A stretch of 64,000 bases of DNA from Siphonodentalium dalli. Taxonomy: Eukaryota > Mollusca > Scaphopoda > Gadilida > Siphonodentaliidae. Positions within the stretch are counted from its first letter, which is position 1. The number at the start of each line of letters is the position of its first letter. Of the stretch, positions 14,601-59,028 are shown piece by piece. A program made the position numbers and the translations under genes. Under the pieces are notes generated by a model. The model was not told the DNA's origin. It ran no database searches and saw nothing but the letters and a program-made list of their open reading frames with translations. Location of the stretch: the NCBI GenBank assembly GCA_032622095.1, contig CP136062.1, positions 151,520,875 to 151,584,874 on the forward strand. Reading direction: 5' to 3'.

Positions 14601-14996
14601 TTTATGAATTCTTATTCCATGACTGGAGCTTCCTGAAATTTTGTGAAAACCCTGTGCCAATGCATTCTCATATATATGCGAGTTTCCCATATGGAGATTC
14701 GCATATATAAGAGAATACATTGGCCTAACACTATGTACCTTGGCCTTGTAAGCCAGTGCATTCTCTTATATATGTGAGGCTCCATATATAAGAGAATCCA
14801 CTGGCACATGATCATTAATGCTGCATTAGCGCAGCTCCCACCATGAAAGGGTTAATAACCACTGAGCGTATCATTCGTATTCTGATTCATTGCAGGTGGT
14901 GGAGTTATGGGCCTTCCCGGGAAGTTGGCAGCTCAAGCTTGTCTAGAAGATTTCAAGGATCAGGGAACTAAAGCTGAACCTGTGAAAGCGTCCTAG
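325..14996 (+). CDS. PYROXD2: PYROXD2-like oxidoreductase, 3' eleven exons (5' end outside window)
   Basis: Exons, all with AG/GT borders and matching phases: 325-517, 2073-2131, 3675-3772, 4384-4525, 6537-6668, 8850-8922, 10113-10269, 11506-11660, 12580-12686, 13070-13190, 14896-14996 (stop TAG). They sum to 1338 nt, 445 residues. The order of motifs matches the family as I know it: [14 protein letters not shown] (exon 3), [13 protein letters not shown] and [10 protein letters not shown] (exon 4), [19 protein letters not shown] (exon 5), [14 protein letters not shown] (exon 7), [17 protein letters not shown] (exon 8), [21 protein letters not shown] (exon 9), and the C-terminal flavin motif [17 protein letters not shown] across exons 10-11. 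Human PYROXD2 is about 581 residues, so roughly 135 N-terminal residues (Rossmann GxGxxG) are missing at the window edge. The family is reported as mitochondrial and is related to phytoene desaturase-type flavoenzymes; its substrate is unsettled. The introns are full of transposable elements; one abuts the donor of the first exon. Identity is confident; exact exon ends are read by eye. Confidence 0.93.
523..950. mobile_element. H-family hAT-like foldback element, long form, 428 bp
   Basis: Ends are CAAGCCTGCAAGTAGTG and its imperfect inverse CTATTTGTAGGCTTG. It is flanked by an exact 8-bp duplication CAGGTGAA (515-522 and 951-958). Inside are two hairpins (arms beginning CAGAATGAGGTC) separated by a spacer of about 180 bp containing TCTGTATTCCCTAATTTGC. 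An 8-bp duplication and CA..TG ends fit hAT. The duplicated target is a PYROXD2 5' splice site. Confidence 0.8.
1687..1950. mobile_element. A-family piggyBac-like twin-hairpin MITE
   Basis: Left ACCCTTCCATGACTGGAGC, right CAGCTCCTGTCATGAACC...GGGTTAA. Two hairpins of the shared GCATTCTCTTATATATGC module. In the PYROXD2 intron after exon 325-517. Confidence 0.7.
2240..2326. repeat. short foldback AAATGTTCAGATAATAAG
   Basis: AAATGTTCAGATAATAAGTT and its inverse about a short centre. Related half copies at 1105-1142 and 16027-16092. Confidence 0.5.
2335..3055. repeat. degenerate direct repeats in a PYROXD2 intron
   Basis: Units of roughly 150-170 bp with ACATGGC.GCC..CATCTTGGAT, CCACATCCCTCA and TGGATC(C/T)T(C/T)G.GGTGACC at about 2345, 2515 and 2690, decaying to the right. 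Not coding. Confidence 0.5.
3131..3380. mobile_element. A-family piggyBac-like twin-hairpin MITE
   Basis: The left TIR is cut to GACTGGAGCTTCCTG. The right end is GCTCCCATCATGAAAGGGTTAA. Two hairpins. Confidence 0.68.
3440..3650. mobile_element. D-family fragment next to a PYROXD2 acceptor
   Basis: Linker (TGAAATTATAAAATTGTTAA), the shared hairpin and the D-specific GGGTAAAAAAATCCCGACT end. Truncated on both sides. It ends about 25 nt before the exon at 3675. Confidence 0.6.
4560..4980. repeat. dispersed repeat, copy 1 of 2
   Basis: Shares CTGCCAATTGGGTCACCC, TATCGATCAC and AGGCTGACTTA-type blocks with 45060-45385. About 320 bp of homology; no terminal repeats seen. In PYROXD2 intron 4. Confidence 0.5.
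5154..5408. mobile_element. H-family hAT-like twin-hairpin MITE, 255 bp
   Basis: Ends are CAAGCCTTGAAATAGTGTG and its inverse, flanked by ATCTGGAG at 5146-5153 and 5409-5416. The left half folds into one hairpin (loop near CCACATAGTGGG) and the right half into its reverse complement, so the whole is also one palindrome. It sits in PYROXD2 intron 4. Confidence 0.85.
5680..5905. mobile_element. H-family relative with variant ends
   Basis: Begins GGGGCTGGACATTTGCAG and ends CTGCAAATGTCCAGCACC, so the termini differ from CAAGCCTTG although the inner hairpin arms are the same. The spacer (CTTATCTGCTATGGGAGAC) is shortened relative to long copies. In PYROXD2 intron 4. Confidence 0.65.
6177..6430. 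mobile_element. H-family hAT-like twin-hairpin MITE, 254 bp
   Basis: Exact 8-bp flanking duplication CATAGATT (6169-6176, 6431-6438). Ends CAAGCCTTGAAATAG / CTATTTCAAGGCTTG. Intact double hairpin, about 100 bp upstream of the PYROXD2 exon starting at 6537. Confidence 0.87.
6832..8366. mobile_element. possible old TIR element, about 1.5 kb
   Basis: The left end CCGGGTTTCCGCCAGG and right end CCTGGCGGAAACCCTG are inverted. Adjacent ACATATAT and CATATACA could be an eroded 8-bp duplication. Inside are CCATGGTTCGTGCTGTCGGG, a mirrored CCATGGGACGGACCC near the right end, and an imperfect ~130-bp tandem duplication at 7908-8100 (TAGTTTCATCCA..AATCCCGTGCA). No transposase reading frame is visible. 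In PYROXD2 intron 5. Confidence 0.42.
8612..8650. repeat. poly-G tract, 39 bases
   Basis: An uninterrupted G run in PYROXD2 intron 5. Its length in the assembly may be unreliable. Confidence 0.9.
9165..9235. repeat. GAATC-rich simple repeat
   Basis: Repeats of ATCGAATCGAAT. A similar tract is at 40888-40936. 8940-10030 holds nothing else I can name. Confidence 0.6.
10340..10760. repeat. dispersed repeat (GATAACTTTAG type)
   Basis: Two internal units (GATAACTTTAG..AG.CT.AACTGAATG, ACCAATTTTCACC.AGAGTTA). Related sequence at 11765-11960 and 12880-13015, all in PYROXD2 introns. Confidence 0.5.
11078..11470. mobile_element. H-family element, degraded long form
   Basis: The left hairpin (CATTTGCAGAATTAGGTCCC) has lost part of its loop. 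The long-form spacer (AATGGCTGCACATCACC) and right hairpin follow. The outer termini are not recognisable. It ends about 35 bp before the PYROXD2 exon at 11506. Confidence 0.6.
12296..12498. mobile_element. A-family piggyBac-like MITE
   Basis: TTAACCCTTTCATG on the left, TCATGAAAGGATTAA on the right. The first hairpin is deleted. About 80 bp upstream of a PYROXD2 exon. Confidence 0.7.
13302..13514. mobile_element. C-family TTAA foldback
   Basis: Termini CCCTTTGAGTGCCAG / CTGGCACTCAAAGGG; right TTAA present, left is GTAA. One copy of the shared hairpin plus an A/T-rich linker. In the last PYROXD2 intron. Confidence 0.75.
13934..14187. mobile_element. H-family hAT-like twin-hairpin MITE, 254 bp
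   Basis: Exact duplication TAGGGGCC at 13926-13933 and 14188-14195. Complete ends and both hairpins. In the last PYROXD2 intron. Confidence 0.87.
14613..14855. mobile_element. A-family piggyBac-like twin-hairpin MITE
   Basis: Left TTATTCCATGACTGGAGC, right CCACCATGAAAGGGTTAA. Two hairpins. It ends 40 bp before the last PYROXD2 exon, in its branch-point region. Confidence 0.7.
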
Positions 14997-18431: not shown

Positions 18432-18439
18432 TGCTACGC

Positions 18440-18739: not shown

Positions 18740-19245
18740 GTATAAAATAATAAATATGAATTGAAGACCCCTGTGCGGAAACGCTTCTATCAATTATTCT
18801 ATCAATTAACCCTTTACCCAACAGAACGGCCCGGTGCCAATGCATTCTCTTATATATTCGAGTCGACCATAGGTCGCCTCGCATATATAAGAGAATGCAT
18901 TGGCTTAACACATTAAAAATTATAAAATTGTTAAAGAATGTAAGAAAAAATGGTAAAAAGTGTTAAAAAAAGATTTTTTTTAGGCCAATGCTTTCTCTTA
19001 TATATGCGAGGCGACCTATGGTCGACTCGCATATATAAGAGAATGCATTGGCACAGGGCATAACTGTAACCATCACAATGTGGTCAATGAGCCGGTTCCA
19101 ATGATATCCATATTTGTATGGTTCTATTGAGACAGACCGAAGATATTTTAGGCTGTTGAAGCTTTATTTGGGCGTTTTTGGCCGGTTTGTTGGGTAAAGG
19201 GTTAATATTGATTTTATTTCAATATTTTTGGTATAATACATACAA
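18740..19245 (+). repeat. copy of PYROXD2 intron-5 sequence, interrupted by the B element
   Basis: AAATATGAATTGAAG, GGAAACGCTT.TATCAATTA and, beyond the B element, TTAATATTGATTTTA match 6749-6800. Confidence 0.5.
18810..19201. mobile_element. B-family TTAA foldback, 392 bp
   Basis: Perfect 14-bp termini CCCTTTACCCAACA / TGTTGGGTAAAGGG with TTAA on both sides (18806-18809, 19202-19205). Two copies of the GCATTCTCTTATATATGC hairpin around an A/T-rich linker, then ~180 bp of unique sequence (CAATGAGCCGGTTCCAATG). Classed as piggyBac-like from TTAA and CCCTTT. Confidence 0.82.
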
Positions 19246-20190
19246 TCAATTTGGGACAGTTTACAGCACGTGGAGCATAGCAAGGGGGAAAACTCTATCT
19301 CTATCTGAAACAGCTCATCACTACTCCATATGAACAATTTACAGCATGTGGAGCGTAGCAAGGGGGAAAACTCTATCTCTATCTGAGATTGCCTGGATGA
19401 TCTCCATATGGGAGACTTGCTTACATTAGAGAATGCATTGACACAGGGTTTTCAGAAAGCACCAGTCATGGAACGTTTAAACCTCTCCATGGGTAATATT
19501 CAAGTTAAACCTTGTGATTAGTAATATTCAAGTCATGTAAGCAAGTTAAATCTTACCATGGCCAATATTCAAGTCATGTTTGCAAGTTAAACCTCACTGG
19601 GTAACAACAAAAACTAAATTCAAGTAGCTCAATTTGACAGACTGCTATTCAAGGCCAAGAACTTGCAGTTGTGGGGGGGGGGGGGGGGCTCAAATAGTCC
19701 TGAATATTGGTATATCACTCACAGAAATGTTAATTGAGATATGGCCTTGAATTTTATTATTGTTGACATTGGAACCCTGAATTTAATCCCAACATGACAA
19801 ATATCGGTATTCCCATATCTTTCAGTGTTATACCTCTATAGGCTATAGCCCTAACATGGCATAATCAGGCAGATATCAGTATTCCCATATGGCTCAGTGT
19901 TATACCTCTATATGCTATAGCTCTAACATGGCATATATCAGTATTCCCATATGGTTTAGTGTTATACCTCTGTTTGTGATTCTGCAAGATAGATCACAAT
20001 CAGAGGTAGACAAAGCAGGTGCAGATTTGACTCCAGGTCAGTGATGTATGTGGTGACAGAAGGGGAGGGTGGGGTTAGGTCACATCACCTTAAAGTTTGC
20101 CCAAAGTGTTCAATTGTTGGAAATATCATGCTTGACACATTAGTTGGAACATAAAACAAAATAGGTTCAATTTGTTTTGATTATTTAATG
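19245..20190. other. intergenic with short duplications, no gene
   Basis: TTTACAGCA(C/T)GTGGAGC.TAGC duplicated at 19259/19330. GTAATATTCAAGT-type repeats at 19490-19600. CAGTATTCCCATAT with CTATA.GCTATAG repeated at 19805, 19875 and 19935. A G16 tract at 19673-19688. Confidence 0.5.
19398..19482. mobile_element. A-family right-end fragment
   Basis: Half hairpin (GGGAGACTTGCTTACATTAG), then GGTTTTCAGAAAGC and CAGTCATGGAACGTTTAA. Confidence 0.5.
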
Positions 20191-29892: not shown

Positions 29893-32800
29893 ATGGAGGA
29901 CTCGTCGCACAGGTTCCTTGACCAGATAATAAAAGGCATCCAAAGTTCATGTCTTGCTAACTTGGAGTTCGACTTGAATGTCAATGTTATCGGCCATTTG
30001 TATATATGCATAGATGGCACGAAAAGTGGAAATATAGTTCTTAGTGAAGTTGTCTCTAAAAACAATGTGGAAAATTCAACTACATTCAGGTCAAATAGCT
30101 TCATTGCTAAAGACGACCGAATGGAGCCGAAAAGGCTGCTCACCTGCCATTCCAGATATACAGCTTTAAAACATGAATCTCATATCGAGGCTCATGCACC
30201 TTCACATATATCTCCCATCTCATCGAGAGCTAACTCAGAAAACAGCATGTCTCCCGCTCGCTCAGATTGCACTGCATCATACCCATTGTCAAGATTTGAT
30301 AACTTCACGAGAGCTCATACTCCATCAGGATCGCCTTCATCCGACAATGCAGCTATTTGTCATTCTATGCTGAATCGTTCTGCGTCTCATCAGAATTCTA
30401 GTCAATCGCCTTCGCAGGATCTTCTTAACGCAAACATGTATCACAAGCTAACCGCTAAACAAATGAAGTATTCTACCGAGTTGCTTCCAACTGTTGCACA
30501 TAGTCACGCTAACGGAGTATCTGCACTTACCAATGGGATGGCTGCGCATACAAACGGTTTATCGTCGACACCTTCTAACAGTGTATCGGCACATTCTAAT
30601 GGAGTTTATAGTCAGAAAAAGATACCGTGTAAAATGTACAAACAGTCTCTTGTGAAGCCACCGGTGCTCAACCATGAAGTAAAAAACTGTCCACCATCCA
30701 TAAACGGTCCACCATCCATAAATGGTCCACCATCCCTTGATCACTATGGCAATGGAGATAGACTATCAAATAGTGATATTAAGCCAGAGCCACCAGATGA
30801 CTGGGACAATAGTGATATGCCAATAGATGGAAGACGTCTCATCCACAATGATATCAAGTCTGAAAGAATTAACGGTGAAAGTAATATTGGGATGAAAGGT
30901 AGGTTACTAAGTAAAGATTTATGGGTGTACATGTACCATCCAAAGTTAAAATTCCTAAAAAAAATATTCAGACAAATAAAATGAGTTAAACATACAATAA
31001 ATATCACATGGACTTCACAAAGACCTGCAATAGTATACAAAAATATGATAAGAAAACATATAAAATGTATAATTAAGAAAGCTCTTGAACCCTTCCATGA
31101 CTGGAGCTTCCTGAAATTTTACGAAAACTCTATGCCAATGCGTTCTGTTATATATGAGAGTCTCCCATATAGAGCACAGCTCCAGTCATGAAAGGGTTAA
31201 AAATCTCCACAGGACTTTAACCCTTTGAGTGCCAGGCCGATTTTTGTATCAACCTATATACCCTGTGCCAATGCATTCTCTTATATATGCGAGTCGACCA
31301 TAGGTTGCCTCGCATATATAAGAGAATGCATTGGCCTAACACTTTTTCATCATTTGTTATTATTTTTTACAATTTTAATTGGCGCTGAAAGGGTTAAAGA
31401 TACATAATCCGAATTAATGCGCCATTTTATTATTTCTTTGGCTGCGGGGGTAAAAAATATTTGATTTCGAGTCGAGGAACCCATCAAAGCTCAGTATTAT
31501 CTCATACCAATTTTTGAAACTTTTTTTTTTAATCACCTGGAATATTTGGCAGCCTAGCAAATATTCAACAATCAACCAACATACTCTTGATACCAAATTG
31601 CATTGAAAAAAATGTTGATATATAACACGTTTTGGAAAATTTTATACCAGAGTTGTCAGCGGTTAATATTAGCATTATTTTTTTGGTAATTAGTCAATTC
31701 TGATAACTAAAGCGTCTTTTGAAGAAATGTTGATGGAATCAGATGATACAGGGACCATAATCTGCATCAAATATATATTTTATCTCTGTCTTTCATTACC
31801 AGGATACAGCGACGGGAATCATCCTGTAAGTGATGGAGCTCCATACTCCGTCCAGGACAACATAAATGTAACTAGTGCTATGAGGGCAATAGAGGAACGG
31901 ATAGCGAGAGAATACTCAATGGCCATGGAAACTCCTACTCCGCAAAGTGAGTTCTGTTCAACTGGAAAATTTAAATGGAATTTTACCAAGCCTTGAAATA
32001 GTGTGTCTGTCATTTGCAGAATGAGGTCCCTAGAGGGTGAATTTAGTGATGCTACCCTGCACAGCTAGCTAGCATCACTAAATTCACCCTCTGGTGGCCT
32101 CATTCATCTTAGGCCATCTTCTGGGAAGTATCTATAGCCTCAAATTTACATTGTTTTTAGCTCACCTGAGACGAAGTCTCCGGTGGAGCTATAGTCATCA
32201 CTCCTCGTCCGTCGTCCGTCCGTCCGTACGTCAAGAATCATCTCCTCCCGAACTGTAAGACCGAATGGGTTCATATTTGGTGTGGATGTTTCCTAGGTGA
32301 CTCACATTCAGATTTGTTCAAATCAGGTCACCAGGTCAATTAGTTGCGAAACCAGGGCCATAACTCTATTCCTCCCTAGTAATTCTTAGAACTTCTTCTT
32401 CTCAAGAACCATTGGGCCGATTTAGCTAATATTTTGTATGGAGGGTCCTTGGGTGACTGGGTTTCAGATTTGTTCAAATGGGGTCAAATAGGTGCCGAGC
32501 CAGGGCCATAACTCTATTCCTCCCTAGTAATTCTTAGAACGTCTTCTTCTCAAGGACCATTGGGCCGATTTAGCTAATATTTTGTATGGTGGGTCCTTGG
32601 GTGACTGGGGTTCAGATTTGTTCAAATGGGGTCACTGGGTCAAATAGATGCCAAACCAGGGACATAACTCTTAAAAAAAAAAATCTTCAGAACTATAAGA
32701 TTGAATGAGTTCATATTTGGTGTGCATGTTCCCAAGGTGACTCACACTCAGATTTGTTAAAATCAGGTCACAAGGTCAATTAGTTGCAAAACCAGGGCCA

Positions 32801-35800
32801 TAACTCTATTCCTCCCTAGTAATTCTTAGAACTTCTTCTTCTCAAGAACCATTGGGCCGATTTAGCTAATATTTTGTATGGAGGGTCCTTGTGTGACTGG
32901 GTTTCAGATTTGTTCAAATGGGGTCAAATAGTTGCCGAGTCAGGGCCATAACTATTCCTCCATAGTAATTCTTAGAACGACTTCTTCTCAAGAATCATTG
33001 GGCCGATTTATCTAATATTTTGTATGGTGGGTCCTTGGGTGACTGGGGTTCAGATTTGTTCAAATGGGGTCACTGTGTCAGATAGGGGCCGAGCCAGGAA
33101 CATAACTCTTAAAAAAATATATATATATTTTAAAATTGAAATTCTTGCTCAATTAAAAACCATCCACACCCCTGTTCCCCCTACACCCCCCCCCCCCAAT
33201 CTGCGCCAACCCTGCACCCACTGTAGTCAAGAAAAAAATTAATTAGAAAAACTAACAACATTGTAACATACATAGAGTATGGTATTGTATTTAACTCCAT
33301 GGTCAATTATATATATATATATATTGTTTAACATTTTTTGAAAATTGAAAAACTAATGCCATTACATTTCTGAAGGTTGTGCCCCCTGGCCCTTCACTCA
33401 AGTTCACTGCTTCTGCCACCCTGGTCCCAAAAATAAAATTTACTCAAATTCTTGACAGAGAATCATTAATAAGAAGCATTTACTTTGGCTCTAACTGTAT
33501 GCTGGCTCTAACTGTATGCCGGGTATGCCTACACGTGTCAAGTGAAATCTGACATTTTTATAAACATTCCCTGGAGATCTGTTAGAAGTCATTAATTCCC
33601 AATTACAACAATCTATCATGTATTGTTCAAATCTTTCAACAGGGCAATTAGCCTGCCTGTCATTTGCAGAATGAGGTCCCTAGAGGGTGAATTTAGTGAT
33701 GCTAACCCACATAGTGGGCTAGCATCACCAAATTCACCCTCTGGAGACCTCATTTTCTGGGAAGTATCTATAGTATCAAATTAACATTGTTGTTAGTTAC
33801 ATTTCCCTTCTAGGAATTTTCTATATCCCCTAATTTGCAGAAGATAAAATTCATAATTGAGGTGCCCAATGGGTGAACATCACCAACTTCAACTGGGGAA
33901 TTTCAATCTTATCCTAGAATGAGGTCCCCAGAGGGTGAATTTAGTGATGCTAGCCCACTGTGCAGGATAGCATCACTAAATTCACCCTCTGGGGACCTCA
34001 TTCTGCAAATGACAGACACCCTATCACACTATTTCAATGCTTGATTGTATAATACATTGTGTTGCTTGAGGCCAGGCAGTCAATGTAGGAACAGACATGC
34101 TATTTGCAGGCTTGCTCCTTTGGTGATTGTGATTCAGATTTGTTCAATCGGGGTCACCAGGTCAAGTAGGTGCAAGGCCAGCTACATTACTCTTTCTCTC
34201 CATAGTAATTCATGATATGTCTTCTATGCAAGAATCAAATGGCCTATTATGCTTAAATAAAATTTTCAACTAATGTTGCTTATATTTGGTATGAAATTAC
34301 CTTGGGTGACAGATTTGTGAAAATGGGATCACAAAGTCAAATAAGGACAGAGCCAGAGACTTAACTATTGCACTACATAGTAATTCTTAAAATATGTTTG
34401 CAAGAACTAGTTGGCTTATTTAGAATGGAATGTTCTTCCTTGACTGCAATTCAGATTTTTTTAAATAGGATCACCTGGTCAAATAGGGGCCAAGCGAAGG
34501 ACAGTTTCCCTCTTAATATTCTTCCTTCACAAGGACCATCAGGTCTATTTTACTGATAATTATGATATGTATGAAGGGTTCAATGGTGTCTGGGATTCAA
34601 ATTTATTCAGATGGGGCCACCAGGTTAAATAGGGTGGGACCAGGGACATAACTATATGTCTCTATAGTAATTCTTAAAATGTCTTGTCAAGAGAGGTTGG
34701 ACTATTTAGCTTACATATAGTATGGAGGATCCTTTAGTTACTGAGATTCAGATTTGTTAAAATGAGGTCAACCTGTCAAGAAATGGCGGGGCTATGGGGA
34801 GTTAACACTTTTGTGTCTAATAAAATCATTGAAATACCAAATTCATTAAAACATCTACCTTGTAACCACCTGACTGATTAATCTGACATACATGTATGGT
34901 TTTTTTGTGTCCATGGATAATTGGGCTTCAAACCTGTCTAAATGGTTTTATAAAAAGGTGCTTGTGAGATTGGAAATTTCCAACAATTAAGAAAGTTTGA
35001 GGTGTCGGTTGTGAAATTCCAACCTAAGACTTGGGAGTCTGGAGCCTGGTTGGGAGGGGACTTGTTGAGCTGGAGGAGTGGGTGATCAATAGTGTACAGT
35101 TGGTAATTTCAAGGTGGATGTTTACCAATCTACATACGTGAAGTCTCTCAAGCCACATATATCCTGTTTAGATCTACTTCTTTCAAAGTGATTATGAAAA
35201 GTTCTGACTGTTGTGGTCTCCAGAGTCCCAGTCTTATCAGTCTTGGCAGTCTGGTGAGCGACCCCACAGTCATTGACTGTCCAATTTCTATAACCCCTAA
35301 TTTGCAGAAAATAAAATGCATAATCTAGGTTACTAATGGTTGAACATGATCAACTTCAACTGGGGAACTTCAATCTGATCCTAGGTCTCCCATAGCAGTT
35401 GAGGCCGAAGCAGAATGAGGTTCTTGGAGGGTGAATTTGGTGATGCTAGTCCACTGTGCGGGATAGCATCACTAAATTCACCCTCTAGGGACCTCATTCT
35501 GCAAATGACAGACACCCTATTTCTGGGCTTGGATTTTACCGAATTTCAGTTACTTTAGTTTCATGATATGTTGATTACTGCTCCAGCAATGATCCTGTTC
35601 AGCTTAACATTGTTAGTATTATATATAACAACACTCAGATTCAGCACTCCTCACTACACTGTTGAATTTACTTTTCTGATTGCCGTACATGTAAATGCTA
35701 ACTGAGTAACTCTACCATATACTCTAAACTACTCTAGTTGTCTAATGTCTATAATCGATATAAGGTATGGTGCGATTATGTCCTCAAGTCACAGAAGAGC

Positions 35801-38800
35801 AAACTCGATTGATATTAATATATTCAATTTTCAACTAAATGTAAACATTAGTAAATGTTTAAGTGCAGGTGTACCTATGCAGATATCACAACATTGGAAG
35901 TCAACATGGACATAAGTGTATGCATAAAGTACATGGTTGTTATATCTGTACTGCCATGATATTTGAGTTTGAGGTATAAAAAAATAATAATATAAAATGG
36001 AATTCTGATTAATCCAGCATTGGATATAATAGGCAAAACCTTTTAGAACCTTCATTTATCAAAGACATTTGCACAATTACATATACATGTATTCATAACA
36101 GCTAGCAAAAAAAATTATTTATCCCGCAGGGTCGTAACACAACAAAGACAGGTCTGCCTGATTGACTACCTTTATTTAATGAATTATTAATCAAAAAGGT
36201 AGTCGTGAAATTATTGGTAGGATGTTCACTGTCCAGTTATCCATTTCTTGCTTCGCGTCTTCCTTTTTTGGCCCACAATGCGCATGGCCACAAGCAAACA
36301 AGCGGAGTCCGTGGGAACCAGGACCTGAAACGAGACACTAGACCCCCTGGTTAGTGATGTCTGCTGGTCAGTGCCAAGCGAATGCCGCAGGATCACAAAA
36401 AAAAATTAAAAATAGGGGGGGGGGGGTGTTAATTTCAAACAAAAACATACTTTCCCCAATTTTCGAATCTTGCGAAAAGACCTTGGCCCTCTCACGACTT
36501 GATCACGTGCCTCCGGCGATATAGTTCCGCTCTCCCGATTTACTGAGAACGATCAGCGCCCTGGTTATATATTACCCTGATGCTGCTGAGAGTTTTTGGT
36601 AACATTGCGAATAAATTACCAGGCAGATGTTACTGCATGTTAATCCCACCAATGGAATTTGTGTATCGATCCGCTTGATCCATCAAATCTTTATTTAGCA
36701 ACTGACCCAATCGGGCACGTGATCTTGTTTTGGTTCTATTCTTAGTTTTGGTAAACAACTGCAAACGTGTCTCTCTAGCTGTCATGTTTTAGCGACCCGA
36801 CGGGATAAATGCGGTCGCTATGCGACGCTCTTTTAAATAAAAAAAATCTTATTGAAATCAAATAAATAAATTTTGTTTATTTGTTTATGATAAAATCACC
36901 AACCCTGCAGAAAAGACTTTAGTGCCAACCGTCATCTTACAATTCTAATCTTTATCATAAGTCTGTAAATATTTTAACTCTAAAACTCTAAAATATGATA
37001 AATTTGTTTTAGGTCGTGATGATAGCGACATGGACAATGGAACCATAAACGAATCTGATCTTCCTCGATGCGGAAAGGTTCCAAAGGATTTTGCTGAAAA
37101 ACATAAGGTATCAAATATTAAATCTTATCTTCTTAGTCATTTTTTTTTTATATCAGGTAACATCAAGCAATACAAAGTAAATTATGACACATTCCAGGTT
37201 GCGCTGATCTCTGAATAATTGTTGTTTTTTTCTTCAGACTGAAAGGGGTTATGGAAGGATTAACAATATTATTTCATGATTTTATCTTGATTCTGGGTTG
37301 TAAATAAGAAGACAAATATATACTTCACCCATAAGTAAAGTTTCATTGGCTTAGATATGTTCATAACTGATACTGTAATCTAAATAGTTTAAAAAGGACC
37401 CGTCTATTAAAGGGGGACTGTACACTGAATCCAGCCGACCATCTCCCATTATACTCAACAAAATATATGCAACAAATTAATGAATTTGATCCATGGATGA
37501 GTGCAAAATACACTCATGTGCTCTATGAATGATTAAACATTTCGCCATCGGCAGTCACTGCATTTAATTAATATATAAGAATGTCGGTGTGTGTTGTCAA
37601 TTTAGATATAATATTTGCAAAAATAACTACTTTGAACAAGATTATTCTCCATTTCTATTTGATCACCCTACCGGAGTGTTTCACATCACTTTAAGTCTAT
37701 TACAAACGTCTTTTGAGGAGTTAGATATGGAACTTTAATTATTTTGTCTATTCATGTAGAAATATATAACTTTTAAGATAATTACATGATATTAGTCATA
37801 TTTGAAAATTTAATCTGATTTGTGGGGAAGGGAGTGAGAAGTCCAATAAAACAACATAAATGTGTGTGATATGATTTAAATTTTCCCATGTGACTATGTC
37901 TATACATTATCTTACAACTGGATTATTCCAAATAAAGACAAAACAGTTTGTGTGAAAGAATCGATTGTTTCTTTATATACTGTATTGACCAGCCTGTTAA
38001 TGGTTAACCATTGCGGTCTACATTATATTGTTGGAATAATTGGAAGATATTGAGAAAAAAAAAAGAAAACAGTTTTACCTACTTACCTACCCTATATGTT
38101 TTCAGTCCGTTATTATTAGGCTTGTTGTGAAATGTGCATGGTCAAATTTCACTCGAGTCTTTTTATGTCTTGAAATATATTCTTTTGCCATCTAAATCAA
38201 GTATAAAAGCCCACAAATGTAAAAATGTTTTTAAATCAGAAATGCATGTGCAAGCCTTGAAATAGTGTATTTGACATTTGCAAAATGAGGTGCCGAGAGG
38301 GTTAATTTAGTGATGCTATCCTGCTGTGGGCGGTAGTGACACTAAATTCACACACTGGGGACCTCATTCTGAAAATGACAGACACACCATTTCAAGGCTT
38401 TTAGGGAGAAGATGTCGCCCAAGTCACTCTCTAGGCTGGTCCGTGAGTGTTAGCCTATGATTTTCATTATATCTTCCTTCCACAGATGTTTGAAGTTGAA
38501 GCTATTAAAGGTGTATACATGTATCTTCCTATGATTTCATTATATCTTCCATCCACAGATGGTTGAAGTTGAAGCGGCTAAAGGTGTATACCTGTACCCT
38601 CACCAAGCCCTGAAAGCCGTTAATAAGTTCTCGGCGACTGCCTGCGTCACATTCCTACTCAGCTGTTTCTATACCAACGATGAGTTACTCGGGACAAATC
38701 TCACTGGTGCTAATAACAAGAGAGCTCTCGATCCCGACATCGTCTCTGGAATTCTTGGTAAGGTTACTAAAACAGTGAATGGGTATTAACTCTTATATGA

Positions 38801-39493
38801 CTGGAGCTTCCTGAAATTTTGTGAAAACCCTGCGCCAATGCATTCTCTTCTATAGGCAAGTCTCCCATAGGGAGCCTCACATATATAAGAGAATACATTG
38901 GCCTAACAATATTTACCTTGATGTTCTAAGCAAGTGCATTCTCTTATATATTTGAGGCTCCCTATGGGAGACTTGCATATATAAGATAATGCACTGACAC
39001 TGGATCTTTAGTGCTGCACCAGTGCAGCTCCCATCATGAAAGGGTTAAATATAACGATGAATGGGTACTTGGGCTAAAAATGAACAACATAAGATTTTTA
39101 TATTTTTTGTTCTTCACTGTGCCGCACTATGTTACATTTAGTGGCAAATCTACTGTTGGCGAAACATAAAAGTAAACTGACCATGACAAAAGTGCATCTC
39201 TGGGTTTTTAATTGCATTTATTTTGTTTTGTTTCAGCATTCACGTTGTTCAGATTTAGTGATGCTGATGAGGCAGTTCTCAAGAAAGCCCTCAGAAACAA
39301 GATCACATCATTCGAGAGTAAATTCAAACGAAAGCACAATGATGAGAGCAAGCATGGAGATGACCACGGCGCAGCTAAAGCTATGCATTTGGCTGTCACA
39401 GACGACAATGTCTCGCAGAAAATCCAGGAAACCCTCTACCATTTTGCCTTAACAAACCCAGAAAACCTTCCAGTTAGCGATTGTGAAACGTGA
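29893..39493 (+). CDS. BEN-domain-containing nuclear protein, five coding exons
   Basis: Coding exons: 29893-30898 (the exon itself starts at 29881 after TTCTTTTTAG), 31803-31946, 37013-37107, 38559-38757, 39237-39493 (stop TGA). All junctions are GT-AG and in phase, giving 566 residues. The start ATG has a strong context (ACCACCATGG). Residues 1-60 are a compact hydrophobic/charged segment I do not recognise. Residues about 90-310 are low-complexity Ser/Asn/His/Pro, with PPSING repeats near 275. Residues about 424-488 fit a BEN domain (YPHQALKAVNKFSATA, FLLSCFYTNDELLGTNLTG, NNKRALDPDIVSGIL), a DNA-binding/adaptor fold of chromatin regulators. The C-terminus has basic FESKFKRKH. IKPEPPDDW (I296-K297) and DIKSER (K322) are psi-K-x-E SUMO-type sites, the first followed by acidic residues. 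The function is therefore probably transcriptional repression or chromatin binding (inferred). Splicing of exon 4 may be ambiguous because its acceptor is duplicated. The exact BEND orthologue is not assigned. Confidence 0.82.
31089..31200. mobile_element. A-family internal-deletion copy
   Basis: CCCTTCCATGACTGGAGCTT to CTCCAGTCATGAAAGGGTTAA, 112 bp, with most of the hairpins deleted. It lies 20 bp from the C-family copy at 31221 in a BEN-gene intron. Confidence 0.65.
31221..31393. mobile_element. C-family TTAA foldback, 173 bp
   Basis: TTAA at 31217-31220 and 31394-31397. CCCTTTGAGTGCCAGG / GGCGCTGAAAGGG. One shared hairpin. Opposite orientation to the 13.3-kb copy. Confidence 0.77.
31989..32160. 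mobile_element. H-family left half, cut by another repeat
   Basis: Terminus AAGCCTTGAAATAGTGTG, first hairpin and spacer up to AACATTGTTTTTAG-type sequence, where the AGCTCACCTGAGACGAAG repeat begins. The right half is not found on the other side, so this is an insertion plus deletion or a deletion junction. It starts ~40 bp after the BEN-gene exon 31803-31946. Confidence 0.6.
32160..33140. repeat. AGCTCACCTGAGACGAAG repeat with ~170-bp tandem units
   Basis: Starts with a small hairpin (AGCTCACCTGAGAC / GTCTCCGGTGGAGCT) and GTCCGTCGTCCGTCCGTCCG. Then alternating units with AGGGCCATAACTCTATTCC, CAAGAACCATTGGGCCGATT and CAGATTTGTTCAAATGGGGT (about 32340, 32505, 32805, 32940). An older copy runs through 34100-34770. 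I associate this class with bivalve genomes. Confidence 0.65.
33141..33644. other. BEN-gene intron, no feature
   Basis: Simple-sequence tracts only (C9 near 33190, TA run near 33310). Confidence 0.5.
33645..34047. mobile_element. H-family hAT-like foldback, long form
   Basis: Left AGCCTGCCTGTCATTTGCAG, right CTATTTCAATGCTTG. Two hairpins with a ~190-bp spacer (CCCAATGGGTGAACATCACC). In the BEN-gene intron. Confidence 0.7.
34100..34780. repeat. eroded copy of the 32.2-kb repeat
   Basis: TTCAGATTTGTT, GGTCACCAGGTCAA and CATAGTAATTC blocks recur at ~170-bp spacing. 34780-35286 and 35532-36116 show no recognisable feature. Confidence 0.5.
35287..35531. mobile_element. H-family right portion of long form
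   Basis: Spacer (CTAATTTGCAGAAAATAAAA) plus right hairpin and terminus GACAGACACCCTATTTCTGG. No left hairpin. Confidence 0.6.
36117..36813. mobile_element. possible TIR element, about 700 bp
   Basis: Ends TTATCCCGCAGGGTCG and CGACCCGACGGGATAA are inverted with two mismatches. The interior shows no clear reading frame; it includes a G9 tract at 36418-36427. In the BEN-gene intron before exon 37013. Confidence 0.42.
37409..37700. repeat. F-related repeat copy
   Basis: AGGGGGACTGTACACTGAATC and CTCAACAAAATATATGCAAC match the left of the 58.5-kb element. The right part (CACCCTACCGGAGTGTTTCA) matches 43.5-43.7 kb. In a BEN-gene intron. Confidence 0.5.
38251..38402. mobile_element. H-family single-hairpin copy
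   Basis: Both termini (CAAGCCTTGAAATAGTG / CCATTTCAAGGCTT) flank one hairpin instead of two, as expected from recombination between the arms. It lies about 155 bp before exon 38559 of the BEN gene. Confidence 0.65.
38456..38600 (+). repeat. tandem duplication of a 3' splice site and exon start
   Basis: TCATTATATCTTCC(T/A)TCCACAG followed by ATG(T/G)TTGAAGTTGAAG occurs twice, with acceptors at 38485 and 38558, 73 nt apart. The second is in frame with the BEN coding exon. The first leads to TGA at 38564-38566. Confidence 0.9.
38790..39044. mobile_element. A-family piggyBac-like twin-hairpin MITE with TTAA on both sides
   Basis: TTAA at 38786-38789 and 39045-39048. CTCTTATATGACTGGAGC / ATCATGAAAGGG ends. 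Two hairpins. It begins 32 bp after the donor of BEN exon 38559-38757. Confidence 0.75.
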
Positions 39494-39680
39494 ATGTTCC
39501 ATATTGCCTTGAACCTACCATTATAAGTAATTGGACATTTTGGTCCGAATGTCAATGGTGAAAGCTGTAGATGCGACACCATTATTTTTGTTAAAGGGTC
39601 ATTATTTTAGACTAAATTCAGATTTAGATTTTTTTCTTTTGTTACATACTTGTTGAAGTAGGCTTATAAATATTTATTCC

Positions 39681-39753
39681 ACAATCTCGCGGAAAATCCT
39701 GGAAACCCTGTACTATTTTGCCTTAATAAACTCAGAAAACATTACAGTAGCAC
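39681..39753 (+). pseudogene. second copy of the BEN-gene terminal coding segment
   Basis: TCTCGCGGAAAATCCTGGAA and TATTTTGCCTTAATAAACTC match 39409-39480 of the last coding exon. The copy lies in the 3' UTR. Confidence 0.75.
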
Positions 39754-39899
39754 ATGTATTCAACAGAATCCCAACCATTGAATACATATTGTTGTGTACC
39801 ACAAGTGGTATACATGCCGAGACTTCTTCGAGTTGACACTAGCGATGATGTACATAACATCAACGATCTGCTTCGTGTTTTGCACAGATAATTACTGTG
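39744..39899 (+). repeat. repeat related to an inverted copy at 59 kb
   Basis: CACATGTATTCAACAGAATC and CATTGAATACATATTGTTGT are shared in inverse orientation with 59100-59200. It contains the imperfect hairpin ATGTATTCAA / TTGAATACAT. Confidence 0.5.
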
Positions 39900-40104
39900 T
39901 AATCATCGGAATTAAATCACAATAAATGTATTTGTAGTATCAATGTTAGTCGCAGTCATGGATCAAACTTATCTGATACTTCGGTGTGGTATAAATACAT
40001 AACACAACTTGCATGATAATCTAGAATCCGTTATTGAACTCCTTTGCGGATGATGTGTAGTCATAATTCACTCAAGCTCTGCTTTGATGAAATTTATCCT
40101 TGCG

Positions 40105-40344
40105 CAAGCCTTGAAATAGCGTGTCTGTCATTTGCAGAATGAGGTCCCCAGAGGGTGAATTTAGTGATGCTACCCCGCATAGCGGGCTAGCATCACCAAA
40201 TTCACCCTCTGGGGACCTCATTCTGCTTACACCTCAGCAGAATGAGGTCCCCAGAGGGTGAATTTGGTGATGCTAGCCCGCTATGCGGGGTAGCATCACT
40301 AAATTCACCCTCTGGAGACCTCATTCTGCAAATGTCAAGGCTTG
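40105..40344. mobile_element. H-family hAT-like twin-hairpin MITE, 240 bp
   Basis: Flanks TCCTTGCG / TCCTTGCA (one mismatch). The right terminus has a short deletion, reading AAATGTCAAGGCTTG, so the outer stem is 15 bp shorter than in full copies. Both inner hairpins are intact. Just downstream of the BEN gene. Confidence 0.82.
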
Positions 40345-40965
40345 TCCTTGCACCATCCGCAACTCAATCAATAAAAGATTCTTTATCAAGATGCATGCAC
40401 GTTGTGTTCTGTCTACATAATATACTATCAATGCTTTCTATACTCTGAGAAGACTAAACAATTTGATAGATATTTATAACTGCTTACCATTTTCCTCAAA
40501 GTTGTGAGCCGAATGCTGTTATTGCCATATCATCAAAAAGGTACTGATAAACACTCTATATAGTGTTAAAAATGGACCCCGTTTTTTTTCTTCTTTTGAA
40601 TGCAACAATTCCTATAACCTCAAAAAGTCGTTTCTGCATTAAAAAAAACAGACCGGCGTGGAATATATTGGCTGCTCTCTGACCAATCATAGACTCTCAC
40701 TAGAGGTGGAACATTTATCATCAGTGTTGTCATGAGATGTTCTTTTATTGGGAGAAATTTCTACGATTTATTGCTCAAGAGACTAATTGGGGTCGATTGA
40801 TCTGTAATCCTTACCTTTTTGAAGCACTAATTCTCTAATTGAACTGAGAATTATGGCATTGCGAATCGGGGGCATTTTCATTTCAATGTGAATCGAATCG
40901 CATCGAATCTCGAATCGAATCTCGAAACGAATCATTGCATCAGGCATATCAATAGTGAAGTTTCA
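40345..40965. other. intergenic, no gene
   Basis: Only a GAATCGAATC simple repeat (40888-40936). Confidence 0.5.
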
Positions 40966-41054
40966 TATAGGTGAGGCTCCCTATGGGAGACTTGCATATA
41001 TACGAGGATACATTGGCACAGGGTTTTTGCAAATTTCAGGAAGCTTAGGGTTAA
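40966..41054. mobile_element. A-family right-end fragment
   Basis: One hairpin arm (GAGGCTCCCTATGGGAGAC), GGCACAGGGTTTTTGC and AGGAAGCTTAGGGTTAA. Confidence 0.55.
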
Positions 41055-41223
41055 ATTTGATCAGGATTCCACTATGCACCTTTAACGCTTAGAGTATAAG
41101 CTGCAAACCTTGTTCATGTATGTAGATGTTTAGCAGGGGTGCCACTTGTACATGTATGTAGATGTACAGCAGGGGTGCCACTTGCACTTCTAAAAATATT
41201 ACAAACCTAGTGCTCATTGGGCC

Positions 41224-41664
41224 TGAAAATATGGTGCCAGTCATTTGCAGAATGAGGTCCCCAGAGGGTGAATTTAGTGATGCTATCCCACACATTGGGT
41301 TTGCATCACAAGATGCACCTCCTTGGGACCTCATTCTACTGAGGCCTCATCTTCTCTGGAAAGAATCAAATTAACAAATTTTTTAGTTTTCTCTAGAAGC
41401 TTTAGAAACTTGCTTTTTTTTTAGTTTAGTTTCTCTATATCCCCAAAATGGCAGACGAAACAATGCATAATCGAGGTACTGATTGGGTGTACATCGATAT
41501 CTGGGTAATTAAATCTGAGTCTAGGTCTCCCATAGCAGATGAGGCTATGCAGAATGATGTCCCCAGAGGATGAATTTAGTGATGCTAGCCCACTGTGTGG
41601 GGTAGCATCACTAAATTCACCCTCTGGGACCTCATTCTGCAAATGTCTGGCACTATATTTTTTG
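41224..41664. mobile_element. H-family long form with GGTGCCAG ends
   Basis: Left GAAAATATGGTGCCAGTC, right CAAATGTCTGGCACTATAT. Two hairpins with the long spacer. A B-family TTAA element begins about 14 bp to the right. Confidence 0.65.
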
Positions 41665-41677
41665 ACATGCTCATTAA

Positions 41678-42054
41678 CCCTTTACCCAACAGAACGGCCC
41701 TGTGCCAATGCATTCTCTTATATATGCGAGTCGACCATAGGTCGCCTCGCATATATAAGAGAATGCATTGGCTTAACACATTAAAAATTATAAAATTGTT
41801 AAAGAATGTAAGAAAAAATGGTAAAAAGTGTTTTAGGCCAATGCATTCTCTTATATATGCGAGGCGACCTATGGTCGACTCGCATATATAAGAGAATGCA
41901 TTGGCACAGGGCATAACTGTAACTATCACAATGTGGTCAAGGAGCCGGTTCCAATGATATCCATATTTGTATGGTTCTATTGAGACAGACCGAAGATATT
42001 TTAGGCTGTTGAAGCTTTATTTGGCCGGGTTTGGCCGGTTTGTTGGGTAAAGGG
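41678..42054. mobile_element. B-family TTAA foldback, 377 bp
   Basis: Same 14-bp termini and TTAA flanks (41674-41677, 42055-42058). Close to identical to the 18.8-kb copy except for a short linker deletion, suggesting recent activity. Confidence 0.82.
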
Positions 42055-42058
42055 TTAA

Positions 42059-42286
42059 ACCTTCGATGACCTGAGCTTTCTGAAATTCTGCAAAAACCAT
42101 GTGCAAATGCATTCTCTTATATATGCGAGTCTCCCATAGGGAGCATCACAGATATTAGACATTGGCCTAACAATAATTACCGTGATCTTGTAAGCCTATG
42201 GGAGATTTGCATATATAAAAGAATGCACTGGCACATGATCTTTAATGCTGCACCAGTGCGGGTCCCTGCCGTCATGAAAGGGTTAA
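42059..42286. mobile_element. A-family MITE sharing a TTAA with a B-family copy
   Basis: Its left TTAA (42055-42058) is also the right TTAA of the B element ending at 42054. Right GCCGTCATGAAAGGGTTAA. Two partly eroded hairpins. Confidence 0.65.
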
Positions 42287-43126: not shown

Positions 43127-43748
43127 TTAACCCTTTCATGACTGGAGCTTCCTGAATTTTTTGCGAAAACCCTGTGTCAATGCATTCTCTTATATATGCG
43201 AGTCGCCCATAGGGCGCCTCGCATATATAAGAGAATGCATTGGTCTAACAATATTTACCTTGATCTTGTACGCCAGTGCATACTCTTATATATGCGAGGC
43301 TACCTATGGGAGATTTTCTTATATAAGAGAATGCATTGGCACACATATTATGGACTTGTTCGGGTGTGTTAAACTGACATATTAGTACTCAGGCGTTATG
43401 CCAATCTGGGGAATGTAACAGTCTACTAATATTGCTGAAAATTTCAAAGAAATCGACCATACACTCCATAGAAAAAATTGTCTGAACTACGCTCAATTGT
43501 AAATATTTACATCTCGATTCTGGAAGAAACAGATCTACGATAAACAAACACAAATGATTTCGTCATCGAGAGTCATTGCATTTAATTAGTATATCAGAAG
43601 GAAGGAGTGTGTGTCGTCAATTTGGATAATAATCGTTAAAATAACTACTTTGAGTAATATTATTCTCCATTTCAATTTGATCACCCAACCGGAGTGTTTC
43701 ACATCACTTTAATGCTGCACCAGCGCAGCTCCCATCATGAAAGGGTTA
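43127..43748. mobile_element. A-family MITE interrupted by an F-like repeat
   Basis: TTAACCCTTTCATGACTGG and two hairpins up to about 43345. The A right end (GCTGCACCAGCGCAGCTCCC, ATCATGAAAGGGTTA) reappears at 43712. The ~365 bp between resembles 37.5-37.7 kb (CACCCAACCGGAGTGTTTCA). Confidence 0.6.
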
Positions 43749-44354: not shown

Positions 44355-44530
44355 ATAACCCTTCCATGACTGGAGCTTGCTGAATTTTTGCAAAAACCCT
44401 GTGCCAATGCATTCTCTTATATATGCAAGTCTCCCATAGGGATCCTCACATATATAAGAGAATACATTGGCCTAACAATCACATGATCTTTAATGCTGCA
44501 CCAGCGCAGCTCCCGTAATGAAAGGGTTAA
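44355..44530. mobile_element. A-family MITE, one hairpin
   Basis: AACCCTTCCATGACTGGAGC to CTCCCGTAATGAAAGGGTTAA. The second hairpin is lost. Confidence 0.68.
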
Positions 44531-46950: not shown

Positions 46951-46951
46951 A

Positions 46952-48235: not shown

Positions 48236-48468
48236 CCCTTTCATGATGGGAGCTGGGCTGGTGCAGCATTAAAGATCATGTACCAGAGCATTCTCTTATA
48301 TATGTGAGTCTCCTTCAAGGAGCCTCACATATAAGAGAATGCACTGGCTTACAAGGTCAAGGTAAATATTGTTAGGCCTATGCATTCTCTTATATTTTCG
48401 AGGCCTATGAATGCATTGGCACAGGGTTTTCCCAAAATTGTGGGAAGATCCAGTCATGGAAGGGTTAA
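48236..48468. mobile_element. A-family piggyBac-like twin-hairpin MITE (opposite orientation)
   Basis: TTAACCCTTTCATGATGGGA ... CAGTCATGGAAGGGTTAA. Two hairpins, the second partly deleted. Confidence 0.7.
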
Positions 48469-50464: not shown

Positions 50465-50711
50465 CCCTTTCATGATGAGAAGCTGCCTGGTGCAACATTA
50501 AAGATCCTGTGCCAGTGCATTCTCTTATATATATGATTCTCCCACAGGGAGCCCTGCATATATGAGAATGCAGTGGCTTACAAGGTCAAGGTAAATATTG
50601 TTAGGCCAATGTATTCTCTTATATATGCGAGGCTCCCTGTGAGAGACTCGCATATATTAGAGAATGCAGGGTTTTTGCAAAATTTCAGGAAGCTCCAGTC
50701 ATGGAATGGTT
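50465..50711. mobile_element. A-family MITE
   Basis: CCCTTTCATGATGAGAAGC ... GCTCCAGTCATGGAATGG. Two hairpins. TTAA flanks eroded. Confidence 0.6.
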
Positions 50712-54715: not shown

Positions 54716-54972
54716 AACCCTTCCATGACTGGAGCTTCCTGAAATTTTGCGAAAACCCTTTGCCAATGCATTCTCTTATATATGTGAGTCTCCCATAGGG
54801 AGCCTCGCATATATAAGAAATACCATATTCACCTTGACCTTGTAACCCAGTGTATTCTCTTATATATGCGAGGCTCCTTATGGGACTCGCATATTTTTAG
54901 GGAATACACTGGCACAGGATCTTTAATGCTGCACCAGCACAGCTCCCGTCATGAACCTCATGAAAGGGTTAA
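54716..54972. mobile_element. A-family piggyBac-like twin-hairpin MITE
   Basis: ACCCTTCCATGACTGGAGC ... CATGAAAGGGTTAA. Two hairpins. A T-family element follows at 55014. Confidence 0.68.
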
Positions 54973-55482: not shown

Positions 55483-56472
55483 TTGGCAGTGCAGTGATTG
55501 GAACGGCTACCAACACAATTTGGTACAGTGCGGCAATTGCAATAGCTACCGATACATTTGGAACGGCTACTGACATGGTTTGGTACAGTGTAGTGATTGC
55601 AACAGCTACCGACATATGTGACCCGCCATATCAAATCCAGTCGTAAGTCGGGATTTTTTTTACCCTGTGCCAATGCATTCTCTTATATATGCGAGTCGAC
55701 CATAGGTCGTCTCGCATATATAAGAGAATGCATTGGCCTAACAATTTTTTACAATTTTAATAATTTTTTCTTGTATTCTTTAACAATTTTATAATTTCAC
55801 CCATACAGAGCCCCAGACAAACATGAGCAGACAACAGTCTTCTATATGCTTCTATATATGTGTGGGGGCTCCCTGCAGGGTAATGGGTGTTTTTTATTTT
55901 ATGTCCTAAAAATTGTAAGAAACATTTATTTAAAAAAAATGATAAAAAATTGTTAGGCCAATGATGCATTCTCTTATATATGCGAGGCGACCTATGGTTG
56001 ACTCGCATATATAAGAGAATGCATTGGCACAGGGTAAAAAAATCCCGACTTACGACTGGATTTGATATGGCAGGTCACATATTTGGAATGGCTACTGATA
56101 TGCTGTGGCAGTGTAGTGATTGGAACGGCTACTGACATAATGATATAGTGCAGCGATTGCAACAGCTTCCGACACAATTGGAACGGCTAGACACATTTGG
56201 AATGACTACTGATAAGGTTTGGCTGTGTAGTGATTGGAACGGCTACAGACATATTTGGAATGACCACTGATAAGGTTTGGCTGTGTAGTGATTGGAAGGG
56301 CTACAAACACAATTTGGTATAGTGCAGCGATTGCAATACTACCGACACAATTGGAATGGATAGAGACACATTTGGACCGACTACTGACACCTTCTGATAG
56401 TGTAGTGATTGGAATGGCTACCGACACAATTGGAACAGTGTAGTGATATAGTTTGGTATAGTGTAGTGAATA
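55483..56472. repeat. minisatellite interrupted by the D element
   Basis: Units of ~35-50 bp with GTGATTGGAACGGCTAC, GACA.ATTTGG and TA.AGTG.AG.GATTGCAA. Left part 55483-55616, right part 56080-56472, one array before the D insertion. Confidence 0.8.
55617..56079. mobile_element. D-family TA-flanked foldback, 463 bp
   Basis: Inverted termini start TGTGACC(C/T)GCCATATCAA and stay paired through CAGTCGTAAGTCGGGA into two copies of the shared hairpin. TA on both sides (55615-55616, 56080-56081). Inserted in a minisatellite whose units continue on each side, so the borders are unambiguous. Confidence 0.8.
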
Positions 56473-57839: not shown

Positions 57840-58293
57840 TTAACCTTTTCATGTCGTGACCAGCGCTGATGCAGCATTAAAGATCCTGCGAAAAACCCTG
57901 TGCCAATGCATTCCTGTGGCAGACTCGCATGTATAAGAGACTGCACTGCACTGGCTTGCAAGGTCAAGGTAAATATTGTTAGGTCAATGTATCGTCATTT
58001 ACAATAATGCCATAAATAATCGACTCCTTAACAACAGCAGAGTTATGGGTAATTTTTCAGGATTTAGTCGGAAATATGGCTTGTTGTCATTCATCAGAAA
58101 GCTCTCACTGACTGCTTTCCGATGAATGGCAACAAGCCATATTTCCAACTAAATCCTGAAAAATTACCTATAATTCTGCTGTGGTTAAGGAGTCAATTAT
58201 TTAGGGCATTACTGTATCTGCGAGGCTCCCTATGAGAGAATGGCACAAGGTCATCTCACAATTTCAGGAAGCTCCAGTCATTGAAGGGTTAAA
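57840..58293. mobile_element. A-family MITE with a nested T-family insertion
   Basis: TTAACCTTTTCATGTCGTGA on the left, CAGTCATTGAAGGGTTAA on the right. The second hairpin is split at 58002-58214 by the T foldback, and A sequence resumes as TCTGCGAGGCTCCCTATG. Confidence 0.7.
58002..58214. mobile_element. T-family foldback nested in an A-family element
   Basis: TA-CAATAATGCCATAAATA ... GGGCATTACTG-TA. Both flanks are A-family sequence. Confidence 0.77.
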
Positions 58294-58463: not shown

Positions 58464-59028
58464 CTTGAAGAGGTACTGTACACTAAATCTGGCTATTTAT
58501 GGAACCATCTCCTTTTATACTCAACGGAATATATGCAACAAATTAATGAATTTGAGTCGTAGATTAGTGCAAAATACACTCATGTGTCTATGAATGATGG
58601 AAACAACATGGTAATTATAATGAAAATGATTTTATGGTTGGAGTTATAAATTCATTTTAGTAATAATTACCATGTTGTTTGTATCATTCATACAGTAAAT
58701 GAGTATATTTTGCACTCATCCATGGCTCAAATTAATTCATTTGTTGCATATATTCTGTTGAGTAAGGTAAGAACGATTGTGTGATGCTAAACAACTTATC
58801 ATGTAGAGTATTTTTTACCCTGTGCCAATGCATTCTCTTATATATGCGAGTCGACAATTTTTTACAATTTTAATAATTTTTTCTTGTATTCTTTAACAAT
58901 TTTATAATTTCACCCATACAGAGCCCCAGACAAACATGAGCAGACGACACTCTTCTATATGCTTCTATATATGTGTGGGGCTCCCTGCAGGGTAATGGAT
59001 TTAGTGTACAGTACCCCTTTAAGGACTA
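58464..59028. mobile_element. F element: TIR element containing a D-family remnant
   Basis: Ends AGGTACTGTACACTAAATC and GATTTAGTGTACAGTACCCC. An inner palindrome (AACAACATGGTAATTATAAT / ATAATTACCATGTTGTTTG) is followed by D linker with only half of the shared hairpin (58812-58858), then AGCCCCAGACAAACATGAGC. Related sequence without the D part lies at 37409-37700. Confidence 0.62.

Follow-up and report, generated by a model that had tools for sequence, protein, structure and literature searches.

Elements in the window

The 64,000-nt stretch of the Siphonodentalium dalli (Mollusca; Scaphopoda) genome studied here (GenBank assembly GCA_032622095.1, contig CP136062.1, positions 151,520,875 to 151,584,874, forward strand; hereafter the window, numbered from its first base) contains a near-perfect hairpin that recurs inside four families of short repeats, A to D, with different ends. 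The 18-nt arm sequence of this hairpin occurs 64 times in the window when up to 3 mismatches are allowed, as compared with 0.12 occurrences expected from 100 dinucleotide shuffles. A local-alignment scan recovered 41 hairpin units, full or partial (31 A-type and 10 B/C/D-type), whereas none was found in the reversed window sequence at an equal threshold. The initial annotation had described one hairpin in four families with different ends, and this is borne out by these 41 units across A, B, C and D; the four example hairpins that it gave are all present where it had placed them.

The 41 units were assigned to 18 A elements, 2 B elements, 2 C elements, 1 complete D element and 2 D-core fragments, with the assignment and some of the element limits made by hand. 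As had been annotated, there is a single hairpin in C, and an inversely ordered pair of hairpins in B and in D; the two copies annotated for A as well were recognised in 13/18 A elements, the other 5/18 having one recognised unit. The B, C and D elements and their hairpins are as follows, with differences counted against the pooled B/C/D consensus.

31221..31393, plus strand: C1, CCCTTTGAGTGCC tip, one hairpin, AT-rich tail and CCCTTTCAGCGCC tip; TTAA on both sides
31267..31335, plus strand: C1 hairpin, 69 nt, one difference
13302..13514, minus strand: C2, outer flank and hairpin as in C1, inner side different; GTAA and TTAA flanks
13399..13467, minus strand: C2 hairpin, identical
41678..42054, plus strand: B2, CCCTTTACCCAACA tips and two inverted hairpins; TTAA on both sides
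41704..41772, plus strand: B2 hairpin 1, identical
41837..41905, minus strand: B2 hairpin 2, identical
18810..19201, plus strand: B1, hairpins at 18836-18904 and 18984-19052; TTAA on both sides
55617..56079, plus strand: complete D, TGTGACC tips, terminal inverted repeat of ~45 nt and two inverted hairpins; TA duplication
55669..55737, plus strand: D hairpin 1, one difference
55957..56028, minus strand: D hairpin 2, differs at one position and has 3 nt inserted
3420..3651, minus strand: D-core fragment without the D tip, one hairpin (3561-3629) equal to the consensus; ends at GGGTAATG
58811..58998, plus strand: D-core fragment without the D tip, half of its hairpin deleted; ends at GGGTAATG

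The right TTAA of B2 is at the same time the left TTAA of A10. The two D-core fragments have two differences from D in common, and perhaps represent a separate half-size mobile form.

The A elements vary more in their state of preservation, and in 7/18 at least one end has 7 or more mismatches in 18 positions, being truncated or worn.

65..223, minus strand: A1, one end truncated, two hairpin remnants
1690..1946, plus strand: A2, two hairpins
3126..3377, plus strand: A3, two hairpins, left tip damaged
12300..12494, minus strand: A4, TTAA on both sides, left tip worn
14612..14851, plus strand: A5, two hairpins, one of them shortened
19382..19476, minus strand: A6, fragment, inner limit approximate
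31090..31196, plus strand: A7, internal deletion, half a hairpin; 24 bases separate its end from C1
38790..39044, plus strand: A8, two hairpins, TTAA on both sides
40942..41050, minus strand: A9, fragment, limits approximate
42059..42282, plus strand: A10, TTAA on both sides, adjoins B2
43131..43745, plus strand: A11, interrupted by ~360 bp; hairpin 1 at 43176-43244
44359..44526, plus strand: A12, one hairpin remaining after a deletion
48236..48464, minus strand: A13, TTAA on both sides
50465..50709, minus strand: A14, two hairpins
54718..54968, plus strand: A15, two hairpins
57844..58288, minus strand: A16, interrupted by a different foldback repeat
59971..60187, minus strand: A17, TTAA directly against an internal CCCTGT that apparently acts as the tip
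62827..63053, minus strand: A18, one end truncated

The foldback repeat apparently inserted in A16 lies at 57998-58216, and similar sequence occurs at 46950-47168 and ~18235-18432.

Tips and target duplications

Families A, B and C have piggyBac-type ends, with CCCTTT tips set in TTAA and short inverted repeats. TTAA occurs at both ends of 2/2 B elements, 1/2 C elements (C2 has GTAA on one side) and 5/18 A elements, the remaining A elements showing wear, truncation or a shift caused by small indels. The ends of the families had been annotated as unrelated; this holds for the outer flanks (see below), whereas the tips of A, B and C are of one kind.

Family D, represented by one complete copy, has TGTGACC ends and TA flanks. 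A TA duplication is characteristic of miniature inverted-repeat transposable elements (MITEs) of the Tc1/mariner type, and can also be made by other superfamilies. When the D flanks were joined minus one TA, the product could be aligned ungapped, in 57 columns, to one tandem unit upstream and one downstream (scores of 35 and 41). This inferred empty site supports the TA duplication and a real insertion of D. The insertion site belongs to a diverged tandem repeat at ~55480-56290, whose units carry GGAACGGCTACTGACAT.

Extent of the shared module

We compared the outer flanks of the families in 28 pairs, with the A left flank entered a few bases short. All four within-family pairs were similar (p = 0.002), whereas the lowest of the 24 cross-family values was p = 0.048 (A_L against C2_R) and the others were at least 0.11, all uncorrected. 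With the flank contexts aligned at the hairpin, the five bases adjoining it on the outside agree in 8/8 contexts and the sixth in 7/8 (C1 and C2, and the left and right of D, not being independent), after which similarity drops. The outer boundary of the shared part is thus sharp and lies at CCCTGT. Most of YTAACA is retained across families on the inner side. The shared module reads CCCTGT, a 69-nt palindrome and YTAACA.

Families B, C and D also have in common an AT-rich inner linker of ~47-60 nt (B against D left, p = 0.002; B against C1, p = 0.002; C2 against D left, p = 0.008; 0.002-0.11 for the rest of the pairs among B, C and D), whereas the short inner spacer of A showed no significant similarity to these linkers (p = 0.08-0.95). 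The core shared by B, C and D is therefore larger than the hairpin and exceeds 70 nt. The annotated lack of alignment beyond the hairpin and a short linker thus stands for the outer flanks, whereas on the inner side the part shared by B, C and D is wider, and an end-to-end alignment of A to D, which had been named as the result that would undo this description, was not found in the window comparisons.

That A to D are nevertheless a single family whose tips have diverged past recognition seems very unlikely. The order of parts is alike in all of them, A, B and C have CCCTTT tips and TTAA, and the uncorrected A_L against C2_R value could be read as a trace of such descent. However, the B, C and D-core hairpins are identical while their outer flanks, of 19-143 nt, have no similarity, and the target duplication of D is a different one.

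The internal region is accordingly common to families with different tips. Within one tip family, C1 and C2 agree at 112/114 aligned bases over the outer flank and hairpin, as compared with 48/57 on the inner side, where the alignment has 41 gap columns; the partner sequence thus changes at the hairpin. We recognised no chimera that combines two of the named families in the window, in which no systematic search for one was made.

The sharp edge at CCCTGT bears on another possibility, namely that an old piggyBac-type MITE with CCCTGTGCCA tips makes up the module, and that A to D are second-layer elements with tips added outside it, like the CMITE-IN element of corals, for which excerpts of the coral report provide a precedent (PMC2872659). 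A17 is bounded by TTAA on both sides (59967-60191), and its left end is the internal CCCTGT instead of the usual tip. Given the frequency of TTAA in the window (0.0074 per position), a coincidence at this place has a chance of ~0.7 percent, and this single case hints that the module edge can itself act as a tip. Among the TTAA-CCCTTT sites with at most one mismatch in the window, however, A17 alone reads TTAA-CCCTGTGCC; no TTAA flanks the module in the eight contexts compared. We consider this origin of the module improbable.

Predicted structure of the hairpin

In the 69-nt consensus unit, two arms of 27 nt enclose an inner stem of 5 bp and a loop of 3 nt, with one position left unpaired on each side. 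Folding of all three hairpin consensuses gave the 3-nt apical loop on both strands, and the predicted RNA fold of the unit has a free energy of -48 to -56 kcal/mol (z ~ -14 against mononucleotide shuffles). Several units, among them the ones at 104, 14749, 48370 and 58819, have deletions inside the hairpin. A 21-base arm pattern had no match in the viral and genome contig collections searched.

Such a stable fold could suggest that transcripts of the hairpin are processed to small RNAs of a microRNA-like or siRNA kind, which would aid the elements or regulate genes, and a human MITE, Made1, is described in excerpts of an earlier report as the origin of the mir-548 family (PMC1784062). The whole window yielded no Rfam match at the gathering score, and the resident copies of the hairpin decay (see below). 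MicroRNA precursors have an open apical loop of ~10 nt or more, and a 3-nt loop is poor for processing. The small-RNA role raised in the initial annotation thus finds no support in the loop or the Rfam result, and we hold it to be very improbable.

Changes in the palindrome

Over the 69 nt, the hairpins of B2 (41704 and 41837), C2 (13399) and one D-core fragment (3561) are identical to the pooled B/C/D consensus. The A consensus differs from it at 5/69 positions in hairpin 1 and 7/69 in hairpin 2, and the compensating pairs 30/40, 31/39 and 5/65 hold 4 of the 5 and 6 of the 7 differences, respectively. In hairpin 1 of A11 (43176-43244) the inner stem, CGCCC/GGGCG, is of an intermediate form, and here too the change is compensated.

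We assessed covariation in 16 distinct rows, drawn from 19 gapless units of the 41, against 500 shuffles. Pairing was retained in 91.4 percent of the cells as compared with 88.3 percent after shuffling, and 16 cells were changed on both sides as compared with 6.4, a number that 0/500 shuffles reached. The covariation score was 0.111 (0.060 shuffled; 0/500 shuffles as high), and sliding the partners by 1-3 columns gave at most 6 both-side cells. Related rows inflate these cell counts, and we therefore put weight on their direction and not on the numbers.

A different picture emerges from the copies resident in the window. In 18 of the 31 A-type units, with G taken as the reference at column 46 of hairpin 2 although A is in the majority there, we counted 99 substitutions in 1222 sites (8.1 percent), and changes on both arms showed no significant excess (7, with 5.3 expected; P = 0.26). 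Over 29 units of all types there were 10 such changes with 8.2 expected; 12/41 units had been dropped here for having more than 6 gaps or an unclear type, and one (S_180) was kept though misaligned and supplied 19 of the differences. The resident copies decay roughly neutrally. The both-arm hits are complementary in 6/7 cases among the resident A units and in 6/10 among the 29 units, more than the one third that random bases would give. Three of the six resident A cases fall in the CpG pairs 24/46 and 25/45, at which a pair of transitions restores pairing in any case, and the A11 intermediate accounts for another.

Since the changes between consensuses are mostly compensated and the resident copies have no significant both-arm excess, the upkeep of the palindrome seems to occur in mobile source copies, and the simplest account suggested by these data is that moving copies are the ones whose symmetry is maintained or re-established. 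B2 and the D-core copy differ at 0/69 hairpin positions as compared with 6/47 in the best-aligned stretch of the B-D linker (Fisher, p = 0.0036), which points to special upkeep, or else homogenisation, of the hairpin.

The same resident units bear on the idea that the hairpin is a two-way promoter, with TATATAAG on each strand and CCAAT ~45 nt upstream. TATAWAAR motifs number 57 in the 41 units and 50 in the other 61,042 bases of the window, an enrichment that is a consequence of homology. A/T sites within TATATAAG are changed at 8/249 positions in the resident A units as compared with 24/389 other A/T sites, not a significant slowing (p = 0.14), and CCAAT reads CCAGT in A hairpin 2. A promoter is, on this evidence, highly unlikely.

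Interpretation of the shared module

The account that we tentatively favour is of a clan of short non-coding MITEs, mostly piggyBac-type, in which a subterminal palindromic cis-site, whose function we infer, would have been kept while tips were exchanged around it; behind its smaller families stand two copies of B, two of C and one complete copy of D. The module would be maintained through events in mobile source copies, and the palindrome would most probably serve as a symmetric site for a dimeric protein, either the C-terminal domains of a piggyBac-type transposase or a host factor. A symmetric change of the inner stem fits the binding site of a dimer. In excerpts of a study of piggyBac and piggyBat, the transposases are described as binding subterminal palindromes, unrelated in sequence, through paired C-terminal domains (PMC11707139). 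The tips outside the module could have been replaced via recombination, gap repair or neighbouring TTAA-flanked elements, and one such replacement would have brought the tips of a TA-inserting transposon, giving rise to D. Candidate neighbours as a source of tips are B2 and A10, with their common TTAA, and A7, close to C1.

A bolder form of this proposal, which we regard as rather unlikely, is that the palindrome is a portable amplification cis-element for at least two transposase superfamilies (TTAA and TA), maintained on source copies by selection acting via compensating changes, and that MITEs evolve by re-tipping this core, much as SINEs (short interspersed nuclear elements) re-head a conserved central domain.

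Several observations weigh against the favoured account. No transposase gene was found by Pfam in 10 chosen reading frames. In the covariation test, neither the number of pairs with a both-side change (5, with 3.7 in shuffles; 101/500) nor that of further pair types (12, with 11.6; 273/500) was exceptional, and the compensated changes amount to few events that many rows inherited. The excess of complementary hits makes some local correction within resident copies possible. The linker, being AT-rich, may evolve faster than the hairpin. The divergence of A from B/C/D, at 7-10 percent, is about the decay of the A copies (8 percent), so that sharing of the module is needed only around the time of the A burst, and recent sharing together with correction of the palindrome by template switching could suffice. 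As the excerpted piggyBac and piggyBat study gives transposase palindromes of 14-19 bp, far shorter than 69 nt, the conserved arms are not explained by one dimer site (PMC11707139). Finally, D, with its TA duplication, should not use a piggyBac transposase. We do not claim selection on the hairpin as proven by these comparisons. The initial annotation took the module to be conserved and exchanged independently of the termini, perhaps as an enhancer of mobility or a replication unit; its independent conservation can fairly be read from the data, whereas actual exchange and either role are putative.

The strongest rival, possible although we doubt it, dispenses with function: long palindromes are fragile and break, repair copies other hairpins, and the hairpins are thereby homogenised and perfected by template switching while the sequence outside is swapped. 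Such repair would account for a hairpin that is more alike than the adjoining linker, for C1 and C2 differing mainly on one hairpin side, for compensating changes at the neighbouring pairs 30/40 and 31/39, for the deletions inside several units and for the complementarity of 6/7 resident both-arm hits. It would not lead one to expect that both-arm hits lack an excess (7, with 5.3 expected), and three of the six complementary ones fall at CpG pairs; moreover, the inner stem differs between A and B/C/D, and homogenisation is hence incomplete.

Comparison with known systems

A shared core with different tips is already known from corals, the nearest precedent in the openly licensed literature searched. 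Excerpts of the report on the Acropora CMITEs describe six families that differ in their CCCTTT-like tips, have TTAA and share an internal region of ~75 bp; this region, the origin of which was left unexplained, shows stronger conservation than the tips do. A second-layer element, CMITE-IN, is also described there (PMC2872659). Short MITEs, CCCTTT-like tips, TTAA and a shared internal region are thus common to both systems. The 60-bp CMITE consensus has no similarity to our module above that of shuffles (p = 0.80-0.87) and folds into no strong hairpin (z = -0.3 and -2.4), whereas the module here is a near-perfect palindrome, usually present in two inverse copies, and D has TA where the CMITEs all have TTAA. 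With D, the pattern known from corals apparently extends to an element with ends of a different transposon type.

Three further systems resemble the clan in part, as far as excerpts of the respective reports go. MER6 likewise places a conserved domain, the SINE V domain, in different classes of transposable element, with a SINE body inside a mariner-type MITE; it differs in being SINE-derived, and is described there in MER6 and its variant MER6A rather than as a core with many tip sets (PMC6887750). The piggyBac and piggyBat ends also have a palindrome shortly inside the tip, with demonstrated transposase binding at 14-19 bp, whereas the 69-nt palindrome here is a putative binding site (PMC11707139). 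For mPing and mPong, mutations assayed in yeast show that internal regulatory regions can increase or decrease transposition; internal MITE sequence is involved in both cases, and here conservation is what is seen (PMC9921582). Five short tip or arm strings, sought in openly licensed literature, gave two papers on heart-cell microRNAs, with a single occurrence of one string in each; absence from this literature is weak evidence.

MITEs are normally classed by their tips. If a core can outlast the tips and cross between transposase types, such a classification misses descent, and one may look to the internal sequence for what lets some MITEs amplify. A second, palindromic case with a TA member provides an independent test system beside the coral core, whose origin and role the coral authors did not settle.

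Other repeats and open reading frames

Two open reading frames lie among the elements: one of 367 codons at 29881-30984, without a Pfam match, and a short one at 38535-38786 with a sub-threshold match to BEN (E = 0.0011; 19.5 bits, cut-off 23.2), which was the only Pfam match among the 10 frames. One exon compared with the PDB gave no useful match. A possible fifth family, E, has TTAA-CCCTTT-like ends (15692-15730, 15736-15840, 15874-15976 and 43868-43938). Three of its four copies contain TATAAAAGT, and the family is weakly similar to the right half of the hairpin (p = 0.004-0.29 in 12 uncorrected tests); E could be a diverged member of the clan. A second foldback family without the hairpin occurs at 5153-6433, 13934-14187, 40126-40337, 41240-41650 and 62241-62495, with inverted-repeat arms of up to 260 nt and GTGATGCTACCCCGCATAGCGGGC-like cores in most of these places.

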